NCBI RefSeq assembly: GCF_964355755.1
Contig: NC_092679.1
Coordinates: forward strand, 19,892,932 to 19,956,931
DNA: 64,000 nucleotides
Direction of reading: 5' to 3'
Origin: Antedon mediterranea
Taxonomy: Eukaryota > Echinodermata > Crinoidea > Comatulida > Antedonidae
Shown here: positions 36,943 through 56,330 of the stretch, one piece after another
Layout of the letters: each line of letters starts with the position of its first letter
Numbering within the stretch: the first letter of the stretch is position 1
Notes under the pieces: model-generated
Database searches by the model: none
The model's input: the letters and a program-made list of their open reading frames with translations, nothing else
Told to the model about the DNA's origin: nothing
Program-made: the position numbers and the translations under genes

Positions 36943-39402
36943 ATGGTAAGTACTATTAAAATCTCTGAGATTGAGCAGTAATATTAATATTAATCTGTTT
37001 CGAGAATTAATATATACTTAGGCTACTGTATAATGTAACTTGTGTAAAACTGCAAATCAGATAGGGATCGAGTCTTTCTTTTCTAACTGACGTCGTAGGA
37101 GACAAGAGCGTGTTACCAAATTGTTACTAGTAGACCATCGGTAGACTGTCTTTATTGAATTGACCAACCCACCACCGACATTAAGCAGCCATATTGTTCA
37201 TTCACGATTTTAAATCAGTATAACAATTAAATATTAACCTTTATTTTCAGTCAACAGATTTAAAAATATGTACAATTGATCCTGAGCTATTAGCGGACTT
37301 GAAGAAGTTCCGTTTCACTAAGGAATCAGTTAATATGTGTATGATATGTAAGTTGCAAGTTGTATATTGTTTGGAGGAAAAAAGTATAGTTCAGTTTTAA
37401 ACCGTACTGTAATTGAATATGGCTAAAAACAGTTTTATTACCTTTTTATTTTTCAGTAAAAATAGAAGTGGATACACAAACGATAAAGAAAGAAAAGACA
37501 TTTGAGGTAAACTGAATATGTTGTGATCAGAGTGGAAGGCATTGCAATGAATTGGATGACTATACAATATCCCAGTGCTCTGTATCTCCACATATTATCT
37601 ATTTCCGAATTATTATAGGAATATTTGGTAATACAGCATGCATCACATGTGGTGCCTGTAGGCCTATCATGTAAAGTTAGGTTACTAATAGATACATGTG
37701 AAACACATGTGATGTTGTATTACCAAATATTCCTATGATACTTCGGAGATAGATAGATACAGTACCGATAATCGGGTGCAATAATATCACGATACTATAT
37801 TATTGTAGTGTTTTATTATTTTTTTCAGGATGTGTCACCGGAAGATATCCACAAGGAATTACCAGCACAAGAACCTAGATATGTTGTATACAAATACACT
37901 ATGAGTCATGAGGATGGCAGAATTTCTTACCCCTTGATATTCATCTTTATTAATCCTTCTGGTAAACTTGTATACTGCCTAAATTCTATAATGACTAAAA
38001 CTTGGTTCCGACTAGCTACGCAATGCCCTTCCAGTAATTGTTATTTCCCCGCCTGCGTGAAATCAAACCTGCGATGTTTGCTGTACTGGTTGCGTCGTCG
38101 GTTCCCACTTGTGATTACACAATACAACACTTTGCGTCATTACGGCGTTGCGTTGCGTTCTAGTGGGAACCACGCTTTTCATAGGCCTATACAATCTAGA
38201 TAATTTACAGAATTTAGAAATTAAATGTTCATTCATTTTATATGCTATGCCAACAGGTTGCAAACCAGAGCTTCAGATGATGTATGCAGGATCTAAACAT
38301 AGTATGGTGAATGCAGGTGGCTTTACAAAGGTTAGCATTATTTAAGTGTGGTTCCCACTAGAACGCAACGAAGGCCTAACGCAGCGACGTTTCGAAGCAA
38401 AGTGCTGTATTGCGTAGTCACAAGTGGGAACCGACGACGACGCAATAGTGCTGCAAACATCGCAGGTTTGATTTCACGCAGGCGGGGAAAACACAATTAC
38501 AAACGCAATGATTGGAAGGGCATTTCCTTAAAGCTTGCTTCCCATTAGAACGTAACGCAAGGACGTAAACGCAACGCAAGCGTTTTAACCAATATGGCAA
38601 GCGAAGTTATAGACAGTTAGTAATCACAAGCGAATAAGCCATCGCTTGTGATTGGTCAATTCACTTGCGTTGCGTTACGTCCTTGTGTTGCGTCGCTAGT
38701 GGGAACCACGCGTAAGTTGCGTAGATTGCGTTACGTTGCGTCGCTAGTGGGAACCAAGCCTTAAGCTCTATATTGTCTAATTAGTTTGACAAAAATGGAT
38801 GTACCCAAATACGGTAGTGATATCCCCAAATATGGTAATGATATGACGACTGTTTTTACCAATAATACAAATACCGATTTCGATAAGCAATAATAAAGCA
38901 TGGATCCCACTAGAACGCAACGCAACCCAGCGACGTATCGCAGGTTTGATTTCACGCAGGAGGCGGGGACAAACACAATTATTAGAAATGCATTTTCTTA
39001 CGTTGCGTAGGTTGCGTCGCTAGTGGGAACCAAGCTTTAGGCCAATTAACACAGACGAGCAGTAACCGATATAGAATCTGTGTTCTTCATGACTATTTAC
39101 ACACAACGTGGAGCCGACGGGTTCAGGATAGATCGCACAGATTCTACGTGGGCCGGGACAAGCTACACGGTTTCCGCTCACCGTTACCGCTCGTCTGTGT
39201 ACGTAAATTTGCCTTTATAGGTATATTATATTGCGTGAGTTTAATAGATAAACTAAAAAACTACATTGTAAATGTAATAAAGAAGTCATTTATATCAAAT
39301 AGCAACATTTGGTTAACTCTGTAATCATTTTTGTTATAGGTGTTTGATCTCCGATGTATTGAAGAAATCACCGAAGAATGGTTGTTGAAGCAGCTCAAAT
39401 AA
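36943..39402 (+). CDS. Glia maturation factor-like, type A copy 1
   Basis: ADF-homology protein of the GMF class, which binds Arp2/3 and debranches or silences actin branches in the cytoplasm. Exons: 36943-36945 (the ATG alone), 37251-37347, 37457-37506, 37829-37961, 38257-38330, 39340-39402, giving 139 residues. Phases match the canonical GMF gene at 52650. Family motifs: [74 protein letters not shown]. It lacks the C-terminal aromatic tail (SFFR) of type C. An ATG-only first exon is typical of ADF/cofilin-family genes. Introns 4 and 5 are packed with GGTTCCCACTAG-type inverted-repeat elements. Intact, so presumably expressed. Confidence 0.9.
38001..39037. mobile_element. Cluster of GGTTCCCACTAG-type inverted-repeat elements (family M2) around GMF-A1 exon 5
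   Basis: Elements end in GGTTCCCACTAG / CTAGTGGGAACC, with CGCAACG-rich subterminal sequence and a core TAACCAATCACAAGCG. Copies: 38001-38176, 38347-38546 (inverted relative to the first), 38534-38711, fragment 38711-38762 and 38898-39037. An M1 MITE fragment is nested at 38761-38848. A further M2 copy is at 39463-39641 and a degenerate one at about 39650-39760. Confidence 0.8.
39049..39200. mobile_element. Small inverted-repeat element (ACACAGACGAGC ends) in GMF-A1 intron 5
   Basis: Begins ACACAGACGAGCAGTAAC and ends GTTACCGCTCGTCTGTGT (inverted). The duplicated copy is at 46124-46275. No ORF. Confidence 0.7.
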
Positions 39403-48339: not shown

Positions 48340-49899
48340 TGTATTGTAACTAGACCATGGCTGCAGTCGCGTGCGCAAATTTGAGTTAGTGTTTACCGAC
48401 CGACCAACCGACATAGTGAGCTGTAGAGCACGCGATTAAAAATTAAATAGGACCGAGCTCGAATCCTATGATCTGACCATGGCGTTAAATTAGTACCTCC
48501 ATGATCTGATACTACGATATCTAATTACCATCGAGTTGAGTTTGAGTATTATAAGGACCAAACCCACCACAACTGACATCGTACAATTATTAGTATTGTG
48601 CATTTTAAAGATTTATATCGTTAACAATGAAATATTAACCTTTATTTTCAGGCGACAGTAAACGTATGTACAATTGGTTCTGAGGTATTAGCGGACTTGA
48701 ACAAGTTCCGTATGAACGTAAAAGCTATCAATCCATGTATGATATGTAAGTAGTAAGTTTTGTGTTGAGAAAATGAGAGGAGACAATAGTTTAAGCTTGG
48801 TTCCCACTAGATACGCAACGTAACGCAACCTACAGCTTGGTTCCCACTAGAACGTAACGCAAGGACGTAAAAGCAACGCAAGCGTTTTAACCAATGTAAA
48901 GCGAAGTTATAGACAGTTAGCAATCACAAGCGAATAAGCCATCGCTTGTGATTGGTCAATTCACTTGCGTTGCGTTACGTCCTTGCGTTGCGTCGCTAGT
49001 GGGAACCACGCTTACGCAACGTAAGAAAATGCCCTTCCACTAATCGTGTTTTCCCCCGCCTACGTGAAATCAAATCTGTGATGTTTGCAGCACTGTTGCG
49101 TCTTTGGTTCCCACTTGTGATTACGCAATGCAGCACTTTGCGTCGATACGTCGCTGCGTTGCGTTCTAGTGGGAACCACCAGTTTTAAACATTATACAGT
49201 GATGTTGAATGTGGCTAAAAACAGTTTTTATCATTAATGATCTTTGGGTTTTTTTCTAGTAAAAATAGAAATGGATACACTAGCGTTAAAGACAGACAAG
49301 ACGCTTGAGGTAAAAATGAAATCTCGTTAATATTTTTTTCGTAGAGATCAAAGATGAAAATGCAACTACAGTATTTGTCCGGGTGGTAGTTGTCCTAGAG
49401 GGGTGGTTGTCCGGGGGGGGGGGGGGATAGTTGTCCTAGAGAGTAATTGTCCTATGGGCCGTAATTGTCCTAGTTATGGGGTGATTGTCCTTAGGGCTAG
49501 TTGTCCAGGGGTGGTTGTCCGGATACACTATATCACCGTACGGTGTGCTCAGTTACCAATTTGCAGCAATTTCACTATCCTCGTTGTATTTTTTTAGGAT
49601 GTGTTACCGGAAAACATACACAAGGAATTACGTACAAATGAACCCAGATATATTGTCTACAATTACAAGTTCAGCCGTGACGATGGAAGAGTTACATACC
49701 CTGTGATATTCGTATTTATTAGTCCTGCTGGTAATACTGGCTAAATATTAATTTTTTATATTTTTTCAAATTATTTTTTAAATATTATTATTGAATTTCA
49801 TATAACAACATAGAATTATTTTATTAATAATTAATTTATTTATCATTGATTGTTCATTCATTTTATATGCCAACAGATTGCAAACCAGAGCTTCAGATG
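47929..49899 (+). pseudogene. GMF-like, type B copy 2, truncated in exon 5
   Basis: Keeps the ATG exon (47929-47931, donor GTAAGT), 48652-48745, 49260-49309, 49598-49730 and the first 23 nt or so of exon 5 (from 49877), which then runs straight into the type-A promoter (CTGTATATAAGAGG). Exon 6 is missing. The junction shares CTGTAT between the type-B exon and the type-A promoter. Reading on in frame, exon 5 stays open through the A-type 5'UTR, but at the A-type donor the frame no longer matches and a stop follows in exon 2. No full-length GMF can be made from it. Exon 4 shows IFVFISPA where B1 and B3 have IFIFISPA. Confidence 0.85.
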
Positions 49900-49903
49900 A
49901 CTG

Positions 49904-49910
49904 TATATAA
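49904..49910 (+). promoter_or_regulatory. TATA box of the chimeric GMF gene
   Basis: TATATAA 102 bp before the ATG at 50006. The sequence upstream of this box is type-B exon 5, so only about 100 bp of the type-A promoter survive here. Confidence 0.65.
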
Positions 49911-50005
49911 GAGGATTTATTTGTTTTCAGACAAACAACGCACATCTCCTGACCCATCCCACTACAGTAAAACACTTCTTCTGCTTTTCTTTCTAACAAT
50001 TAAAA

Positions 50006-52257
50006 ATGGTAAGTACTATTAAAATCTCTGAGATTGAGCAGTAATATTAATATTAATCTGTTTCGAGAATTAATATATACTTAGGCCACTGTATATTGTA
50101 ACTTGTGTAAAACTGCAAATCAGATAGGGATCGAGTCTTTCTTTTCTAACTGACGTCGTAGGAGACAAGAGCGTGTTACCAAATTGTTACTAGTAGACCA
50201 TCGTTAGACTGTCTTTATTGAATTGACCAACCCACCACCGACATTGAGCAGCCATATTCTTCATTCACGATTTTAAATCAGTATAACAATTAAATATTAA
50301 CCTTTATTTTCAGTCAACAGATTTAAAAATATGTACAATTGATCCTGAGCTATTAGCGGACTTGAAGAAGTTCCGTTTCACTAAGGAATCAGTTAATATG
50401 TGTATGATATGTAAGTTGCAAGTGGTATATTGTTTGGAGGAAAAAAGTATAGTTCAGTTTTAGACCGTACTGTAATTGAATATGGCTAAAAACAGTTTTT
50501 ATTACCTTTTTATTTTTCAGTAAAAATAGAAGTGGATACACAAACGATAAAGAAAGAAAAGACATTTGAGGTAAACTGAATATGTTGTGATCAGAGTGGA
50601 ACATTGCAATGAATTGGATGACTATACAATATCCCAGTGCTCTGTATCTCCACATACTATCTATTTCCGAAGTATTATAGGAATATTTGGTAATACAGCA
50701 TGCATCACATGTGGTGCCTGTAGGCCTATCATGTAAAGTTAGGTTACTAATAGATACATGTGAAACACATGTGATGTTCTATTTTTACTGCTGCAAACAT
50801 CACAGATTTGATTTCACGTAGGCGGGGGAAAACACGATTAGTGGAAGGGCATTTTCTTACGTTGCGTAAGCGTGGTTCCCACTAGCGATGTAACGCAAGG
50901 ACGTAAAAGCAACGCAAGCGTTTTAACCAATGAAAAGCGAAGTTATAGACAGTTAGCAATCACAAGCGAATAAGCCATCGCTTGTGATTGGTCAATTGAC
51001 TTGCGTTGCGTCGCTAGTGGGAACCACGCTTACGCAACGTAAGAAAATGCCCTTCCACTAATCGTGTTTTCCCCCGCCTACGTGAAATCAAATCTGTGAT
51101 GTTTGCAGCAGTAAAAATAGAAATGGATACACTAGCGTTAAAGACAGATAAGACGCTTGAAGTAAAAATGAAATCTCGTTAATATTTTTTTCGTAGAGAT
51201 CAAAGAGGAAAATGCAACTACAGTATTTTTCCGGGTGGTAGTTGTCCTAGAGGGGTGGTTGTCCGTGGGGATAGTTGTCCTAGAGAGTAATTGTCCTATG
51301 GGCCGTAATTGTCCTTAGGGCTAGTTGTCCAGGGGTGGTTGTCCGGATACACTATATCACGGTACGGTGTGCTCAGTTACCAATTTGCAGCAATTTCACT
51401 ATCCTCGTTGTATTTTTTTAGGATGTGTTACCGGAAAACATACACAAGGAATTACGTACAAATGAACCCAGATATATTGTCTACAATTACAAGTTCAGCC
51501 GTGACGATGGAAGAGTTACATACCCTGTGATTTTCATATTTATTAGTCCTGCTGGTAATACTGGCTAAATATTAATATTTTATATTTTTTTAAATTATTT
51601 TTTAAATATTATTATTGAATTTCATATTACAACATAGACTTGTTTTATTAATAATTAATTTATTTATCATTCATTGTTCATTCATTTTATATGCCAACAG
51701 ATTGCAAACCAGAGCTTCAGATGCTGTATGCAGGCTCTAAACTAAGTGTTGTTAACGCGTGTGGCATTTCAAAGGTTAGCATTGTTAATATATAAAAACA
51801 CATTTTTTTGTCCCGATTGCGGAGAGCGGCTGTTTTCACCTATCAAATCTAAAGCGTGGTTCCCACTAGCGACGCAGCGTAACGCAACACAATGACGTAC
51901 GGTATTGACGCAAAGTGCTGTAGCCTATTGCCTAATCAGAGTGGGAACAGACGACTGCACAAATTGCATGTTTGATTTCAAGCAGGCGGGGACAAACACA
52001 ACTATTGGAAGGGCATTTTCTTACGTTGCGTAGGTTGCGTTACGTTGGGTCAACAACAGGAACAAGATAGCAATAAAAACTGTTTATTTTAATTAAATTG
52101 CATTGATTTAATAAACTAAAAAACTACATTGTTAATATAAAAACGATGTCATTTGGTTAAATTATGTCTTCATTGTTTGTTATAGACGCTTGAGCTCCGA
52201 TCTGTAGAAGAATTCACTGAAGAATGGTTGAAGAAAAAGCTTAATGAAATGAAATAA
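50006..52257 (+). CDS. Chimeric GMF-like gene: type A 5' half, type B 3' half
   Basis: Exons: 50006-50008 (ATG), 50314-50410 (type A exon 2), then either 50521-50570 (exon 3A) or 51112-51161 (exon 3B), then type-B exons 51422-51554, 51701-51774 and 52186-52257. Using one exon 3 keeps frame and gives 142 residues. The protein starts STDLKICTIDPELLADLKK and continues DVLPENIHKELRTNEPRYIV, MLYAGSKLSVVNACG and [12 protein letters not shown]. Both exon 3 versions are 50 nt with the same phase, so including both breaks the frame. The A-to-B switch lies at about 50777, at the outer edge of a 346-bp palindrome. Whether it is expressed is unknown, as only a minimal type-A promoter remains. Confidence 0.75.
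50777..51122. repeat. Palindrome (112-bp perfect outer arms) at the A/B junction
   Basis: From 50777 the sequence TTCTATTTTTACTGCTGCAA and onward is the exact reverse complement of the sequence ending at 51122. The outer 112 bp on each side are identical, and the inner part is an M2 element with its own weaker hairpin. The right arm includes the exon 3B acceptor and the first 11 nt of exon 3B. Confidence 0.9.
51855..52060. mobile_element. M2 element in intron 5 of the chimeric gene
   Basis: GTGGTTCCCACTAGCGACGC at the left and the subterminal TTACGTTGCGTAGGTTGCGT on the right, with a degraded right end. Orthologous to about 43302-43490 in B1. Confidence 0.65.
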
Positions 52258-55295: not shown

Positions 55296-55462
55296 TTAAG
55301 CTCTGTCTACACTATCAAACTTTATGTGTCAAAAAAATGTGATGTGCCCATATATGGACATGATGATGTCATATCACTACCATATTTAAGCATAGCACTA
55401 CCATATATGGGTACATCAAACTTTTTTGACACATAAAGTTTGATAGTGTAGACAGAGCTTAA
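55296..55462. mobile_element. MITE M1, complete copy with TTAA flanks
   Basis: TTAAGCTCTGTCTACACTAT to ATAGTGTAGACAGAGCTTAA, a clean example of the family. The interior has GGACATGATGATGTCAT and two CACTACCATAT words. Confidence 0.9.
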
Positions 55463-56212: not shown

Positions 56213-56330
56213 TAAAGCTCTGTCTACACTATCAAACTTTGTGACAAAAAATTTGATGTGCCCATATATGGACATATTTGGGAAAACACTTTTTTTTGTA
56301 AACTAGTTTGATAGTGTAGACAGAGCTTTA
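56213..56330. mobile_element. MITE M1, short complete copy
   Basis: TAAAGCTCTGTCTACACTAT to ATAGTGTAGACAGAGCTTTA, 118 bp, with the central repeats deleted. Confidence 0.85.

Follow-up and report, generated by a model that had tools for sequence, protein, structure and literature searches.

The window analyzed here is a 64,000-nucleotide stretch of the Antedon mediterranea genome (354 Mb), which sits on a 25-Mb contig and contains a cluster of genes coding for glia maturation factor (GMF), which is actin regulating. The copies are mostly of two types, A and B, and an A and a B copy together constitute a tandem unit of ∼7 kb, with the units near-identical; one copy is chimeric, with a type-A gene (A3) fused to a type-B gene (B3). 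The gene copies, and the features in and around the fusion, are as follows, in window coordinates.

36.9-39.4 kb: A1, type-A GMF copy
41.9-43.7 kb: B1, type-B GMF copy
44.0-46.5 kb: A2, type-A GMF copy
48.6-49.9 kb: B2, type-B GMF copy, truncated in exon 5
49.9-52.3 kb: A3 fused to B3, chimeric GMF copy
53.0-54.2 kb: a more distant GMF copy
49258-49906, plus strand: part of B2, exon 3B to the start of exon 5, from alignment with B1 and B3
49906-49907, no strand: second junction, B2 exon 5 (CAGATG) joined to the A3 core promoter (ACTGTATATAAG)
49907-50776, plus strand: A3, type-A 5' part with a TATA box, the ATG at 50006, and part of intron 3
50314-50410 and 50521-50570, plus strand: A3 exon 2 and exon 3A
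50657-50776, no strand: M3, an inverted-repeat transposon of A intron 3, cut by the A-side break at 50776 ∼10 nt into its right arm
50777-50888, minus strand: left arm, an inverted copy of 51011-51122, containing 11 nt of exon 3, AG, truncated M1, and the outer part of the M2 right terminal repeat
50868-51031, plus strand: M2 at the fusion, forming the spacer and hairpin core, with a hybrid left terminal repeat
51011-51122, plus strand: right arm, with the outer M2 right terminal repeat, the first half of M1, AG, and 11 nt of exon 3B
51112-51161, plus strand: exon 3B of the fusion
51422-52257, plus strand: B3, with exon 4 (51422-51554), exon 5 (51701-51774), and exon 6 (52186-52257)

The predicted fused protein matches the ADF-H family (PF00241, Cofilin_ADF; 8e-27) and, over residues 1 to 138, the solved GMF-gamma 4jd2 (2e-41), and all genome-wide matches to it are within this single cluster. 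A3 is closest to A1 (1.38% substitutions, versus 4.3% for A2) and exons 3 to 5 of B3 are closest to B1 (0.65%, versus 2.3% for B2), and the fused copy thus reads as a third A-B unit that would lack ∼4.4 kb reaching from intron 3 of the A gene into intron 2 of the B gene.

The switch from type A to type B is at a palindrome (genomic position C10:19943708-19944053), whose arms at 50777-50888 and 51011-51122 are identical at 112 of 112 positions, the left being an inverted version of the right as originally described. It stands apart in a whole-window scan for perfect inverted arms up to 1.2 kb apart, in which the runner-up is 41 nt. A looser pairing spans 123 nt at 98% identity and a 122-nt spacer separates the perfect arms; pairing ends abruptly, exactly at 50777/51122, and the predicted RNA of the region is a single hairpin (−266 kcal/mol, z of −34). 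The inverted copy adjoins its source, and the spacer is a single-copy M2 core of 122 nt in its native orientation, such that an M2 hairpin does lie in the center of the palindrome. Type-A similarity ends at 50776, in agreement with the claim that it stops at the outer edge of the left arm, and the TT immediately beyond is common to both sides. The 11 nt of exon 3B that close the right arm are at 51112-51122, and the outermost 14 nt of the palindrome, CAGTAAAAATAGAA, are identical in exon 3A and its acceptor, so that 3A and 3B are indistinguishable as their source.

Much of the DNA on either side of the fusion derives from hairpin transposons, which account for ∼61% of intron 3 in type A and ∼68% of intron 2 in type B. 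M1 is a high-copy inverted-repeat element of about 167 bp, and M2 is likewise a high-copy inverted-repeat element, with 2,086 exact genome matches to a 25-nt word of its left end. One nested M2 copy, at locus L015, reads CCATTA/AGC...GCT/TTAATGG, which in this single copy is consistent with a TTA target-site duplication; PIF/Harbinger-type miniature elements would be expected to have TTA/TAA target-site duplications and terminal inverted repeats. A further inverted-repeat element in the window, at 55296-55462, has perfect arms of 41 nt, and part of it recurs at 56213-56330.

Native intron 2 of B1 and B2 is organized as M2, then M1, then the intron end with a pyrimidine tract and TAG, and ∼165 bp (the rest of M1 and the 3' end of the intron with its pyrimidine tract) lie between the region corresponding to the arm and exon 3B. 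At the fusion locus, M1 ends with GCAGC (51109), and the next letters are already AG/TAAAAATAG of exon 3B. The right arm was described originally as native type-B intron 2 plus 11 nt of exon 3B; the exon part stands, but the intron is not native, as it lacks these ∼165 bp. The deletion junction, at 51109/51110, is present as an inverted copy in the left arm, and its occurrence in both arms indicates that the deletion was no later than the inversion; this assembly has no copy that shows the deletion without the palindrome.

The outer edge of the arms, a 25-nt word spanning the M1/exon 3 junction (TTCTATTTTTACTGCTGCAAACATC), occurs at just two places in the 354 Mb with up to three mismatches allowed, one in each arm, and this uniqueness excludes independent transposon insertions as its source. 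The M1-M2 junction in the core of the arms has 15 matches, and among these the fusion is the only locus where both orientations occur, at a separation of 156 nt. These searches bear on whether a transposon whose own ends are long inverted repeats inserted at the fusion and gave the palindrome its shape, as might be supposed given the high copy number of the inverted-repeat elements M1 and M2, and given that oppositely oriented M2 copies elsewhere give perfect arms of up to 153 nt. However, the arms contain exon 3 and a truncated M1, their edge is unique to this locus, there is no second place among the 15 matches with the arm-core junction in both orientations, and dispersed copies with matching ends were not found; we therefore reject this explanation as extremely improbable. 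There is also no target-site duplication at 50777/51122, where GATG is the flank on the type-A side and ATGG on the type-B side, without a direct repeat of a common site. The inverted M1-M2 pair in A intron 4 (38446-38675) was considered as a source of the left arm and was rejected, with 83% identity to it versus 100% to the right arm.

The M2 element at the fusion has unusual ends. M2 typically has the left end CTAGAACGTAACGC and, reversed, the right end CTAGCGACGCAACGC, and the left terminal repeat at the fusion is a hybrid of the two, reading CTAGCGA then TGTAACGCAAGG from outside to inside, with right-type sequence (CTAGCGA) up to 50888, left-type sequence (GTAACGCAAGG) from 50890, and the switch at ∼50889. 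Such a hybrid is the expected product of self-priming inside an M2 hairpin. The hybrid word, CTAGCGA followed by TGTAACGC, is at six places in the genome, including the fusion locus. The other five are at loci L045 (a nested M2 cluster), L046, where the word is an M2 right end with one changed base, and L048 to L050, where the words belong to a small tandem array of partial M2 copies; besides the fusion, then, only one place (L045) looks like a true hybrid end. At L048, positions 1397-1740 (C11:272538-272697) are a tandem array of ∼67-bp units built from M2 ends. The right terminal repeat of the fusion M2 is short, with an 18-nt deletion between 11-nt direct repeats, and we rejected it as a mark of the event, as it has 13 exact genome places.

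Perfect inverted arms are not by themselves proof of fold-back copying in this genome, as illustrated by locus L018 (C9), where M2 copies in opposite orientations (1338-1490 and 2021-2173) share a 153-nt perfect match; these are two separate M2 insertions 530 bp apart, and L018 was rejected as a fold-back, as were L015 and L017, which are nested M2-in-M1 or M2-in-M2 insertions. At L045 (1104-1913; C3:10578647 region), 119-nt perfect inverted arms surround the hybrid-ended M2. The symmetry there stops at the M2 ends and the nested elements are at TTA-type sites internal to M2, and L045 is thus probably a product of nested insertions and possibly a second fold-back. It is the inclusion of exon 3 and of the unique deletion junction in the inverted copy, and not the length of identity, that sets the fusion locus apart, and an equivalent structure is absent among the M2 copies examined.

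Taken as a whole, fold-back copying through the M2 hairpin at the A/B fusion is the best, and a probable, explanation of the palindrome. The original proposal of fold-back or template-switch replication through a hairpin-forming transposon is supported by the hybrid M2 repeat, the unique inverted M1/exon 3 junction, the single-copy spacer, and microhomology at the join to A, which is TT at 50777-50778, followed by one mismatch and then TATT. In the path that we infer, a strand end from the type-B side would have run leftward from exon 3B through M1 into M2, stopped in the M2 left terminal repeat, and folded back onto the M2 right terminal repeat. The folded strand would then have served as its own template for 112 nt of outward synthesis, ending 11 nt into exon 3, before the copied end joined the A gene at the TT microhomology, within the M3 arm in intron 3. 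Compared with an unbroken A-B unit, ∼4.4 kb would have been removed by the joining, and the ∼165 bp, comprising half of M1 and the last part of intron 2, would have been lost beforehand or in the same pass. An initiating break and self-primed synthesis at M2 would be read from the junctions, and the direction of copying, a break or fork stall as the start, and one event rather than two are likewise read from the final arrangement and should be taken as inferred. The position of the A-side join in the M3 stem fits stalling at a hairpin; that both breaks are in hairpin transposons gives this weak support, as ∼61 to 68% of these introns is such DNA.

A somewhat unlikely alternative is multistep template switching begun on the A side, in which synthesis from A intron 3 would have picked up a reverse copy of 14 nt of exon 3, switched to M1, and continued into M2, turned at the M2 terminal repeats, self-copied the first arm, and exited to exon 3B through a 13-nt identity (AGTAAAAATAGAA). 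With this order the ∼165-bp deletion needs no separate event, as the left arm would be the template of the right, the identity of the 14-nt edge to exon 3A provides a homologous exit, and the second junction 870 bp upstream suggests several switches. It requires four or five switches, however, versus three for fold-back from the B side, and the arm is without a tract of clearly A-derived letters.

The second junction, which was absent from the original reading of the fusion, joins B2 to A3 with a loss of ∼765 bp by comparison with the B1-A2 interval, and A3 retains its TATA box and just a few bases upstream of it. Its position 870 bp upstream of the palindrome suggests that the two junctions arose in one complex event. 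The left-hand sides of both junctions (49906 and 50776) end in GATG.

Fold-back reads are a recognized sequencing artifact, and the tandem units of ∼7 kb are near-identical, which would lend itself to array collapse; an artifact of sequencing or assembly is nonetheless very unlikely, as the flanking DNA differs on the two sides (A to the left and B to the right), the hybrid terminal repeat is precise to the base, and there is no nearby gap.

The identity of the arms was taken originally to mean that the event must be young, and this does not follow. Neighboring copies diverge by 0.46 to 1.38%, which predicts 0.5 to 1.5 differences for 112-nt arms of the same age, and the probability of zero differences is 0.21 to 0.60 (P of about 0.2 to 0.6); zero of 112 caps arm divergence at 2.6%. 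The arms are thus no evidence that the event postdates duplication of the units. Moreover, inverted-repeat arms can be homogenized by template switching between them (PMC8604942), which weakens the argument for youth further and would also permit an old fold-back whose arms gene conversion or template switching has prevented from diverging. That possibility concerns the age and not the origin of the palindrome, and we regard it as unlikely, being unnecessary when zero differences are already likely at neighboring-copy divergence.

The fold-back process itself is already known, and the fusion is a well-preserved further example. In human fold-back inverted duplications, Hermetz et al. (2014, PMC3907307) describe a single-copy spacer with a hybrid repeat at its edge, along with short inverted homology, and yeast fold-backs use long-stem hairpins with large loops (PMC7467729). 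Like these, the fusion locus has an inverted copy adjoining the original, a single-copy spacer corresponding to the fold-back loop, a hybrid repeat from inverted homology at the spacer edge, and its other end joined by microhomology of a few bases; in contrast to these kilobase-to-megabase duplications, the copy is 112 nt and interstitial, and a small inverted-repeat transposon within a cluster of genes would have done the priming. Perfect hairpins arising by template switching (Monttinen and Loytynoja 2022, PMC8794818; PMC7954356) similarly have a reverse-complement copy and a perfect stem made in one event, although here the copy is coupled to a multikilobase deletion and gene fusion, and the switch point is within a transposon end. 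Short templated inverted insertions at breaks in yeast, mostly of about 5 to 34 bp, likewise have nearby DNA copied by fold-back into the repair junction (PMC11724301); compared with these, the copy at the fusion is 112 nt and uses a preexisting transposon hairpin.

The fusion leaves a chimeric GMF gene. Exon 3 is 50 nt, and the combinations 1A-2A-3A-4B-5B-6B and 1A-2A-3B-4B-5B-6B are both open and code for 142 aa, whereas exon 3A followed by 3B in one transcript gives an immediate stop. The exon 3B acceptor of the fusion is without the native pyrimidine tract and is located in the hairpin stem, and the last base of the exon (51161) is changed from G to A, giving GAA/GTAAAA instead of GAG/GTAAAA, which should weaken the donor. 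Because of the lost tract, the changed last base, and the position of the acceptor in the stem, exon 3B is likely skipped in the fused gene, to judge from these splice signals. A more speculative extension, and a long shot, is that burial of the acceptor in the 112-bp RNA hairpin made 3A splice to 4B, with one accident giving both a working chimeric GMF and an exon-silencing, or small-RNA-producing, hairpin; if so, the fold-back had an effect beyond leaving a scar.

The fusion thus provides a base-resolved germline case in which a miniature transposon would have primed fold-back copying with a gene fusion as the result, and in which the switch point is readable from the hybrid M2 terminal repeat. 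With at least about 2,000 copies of M2, a test for hybrid ends offers a simple route to further such scars in this genome.
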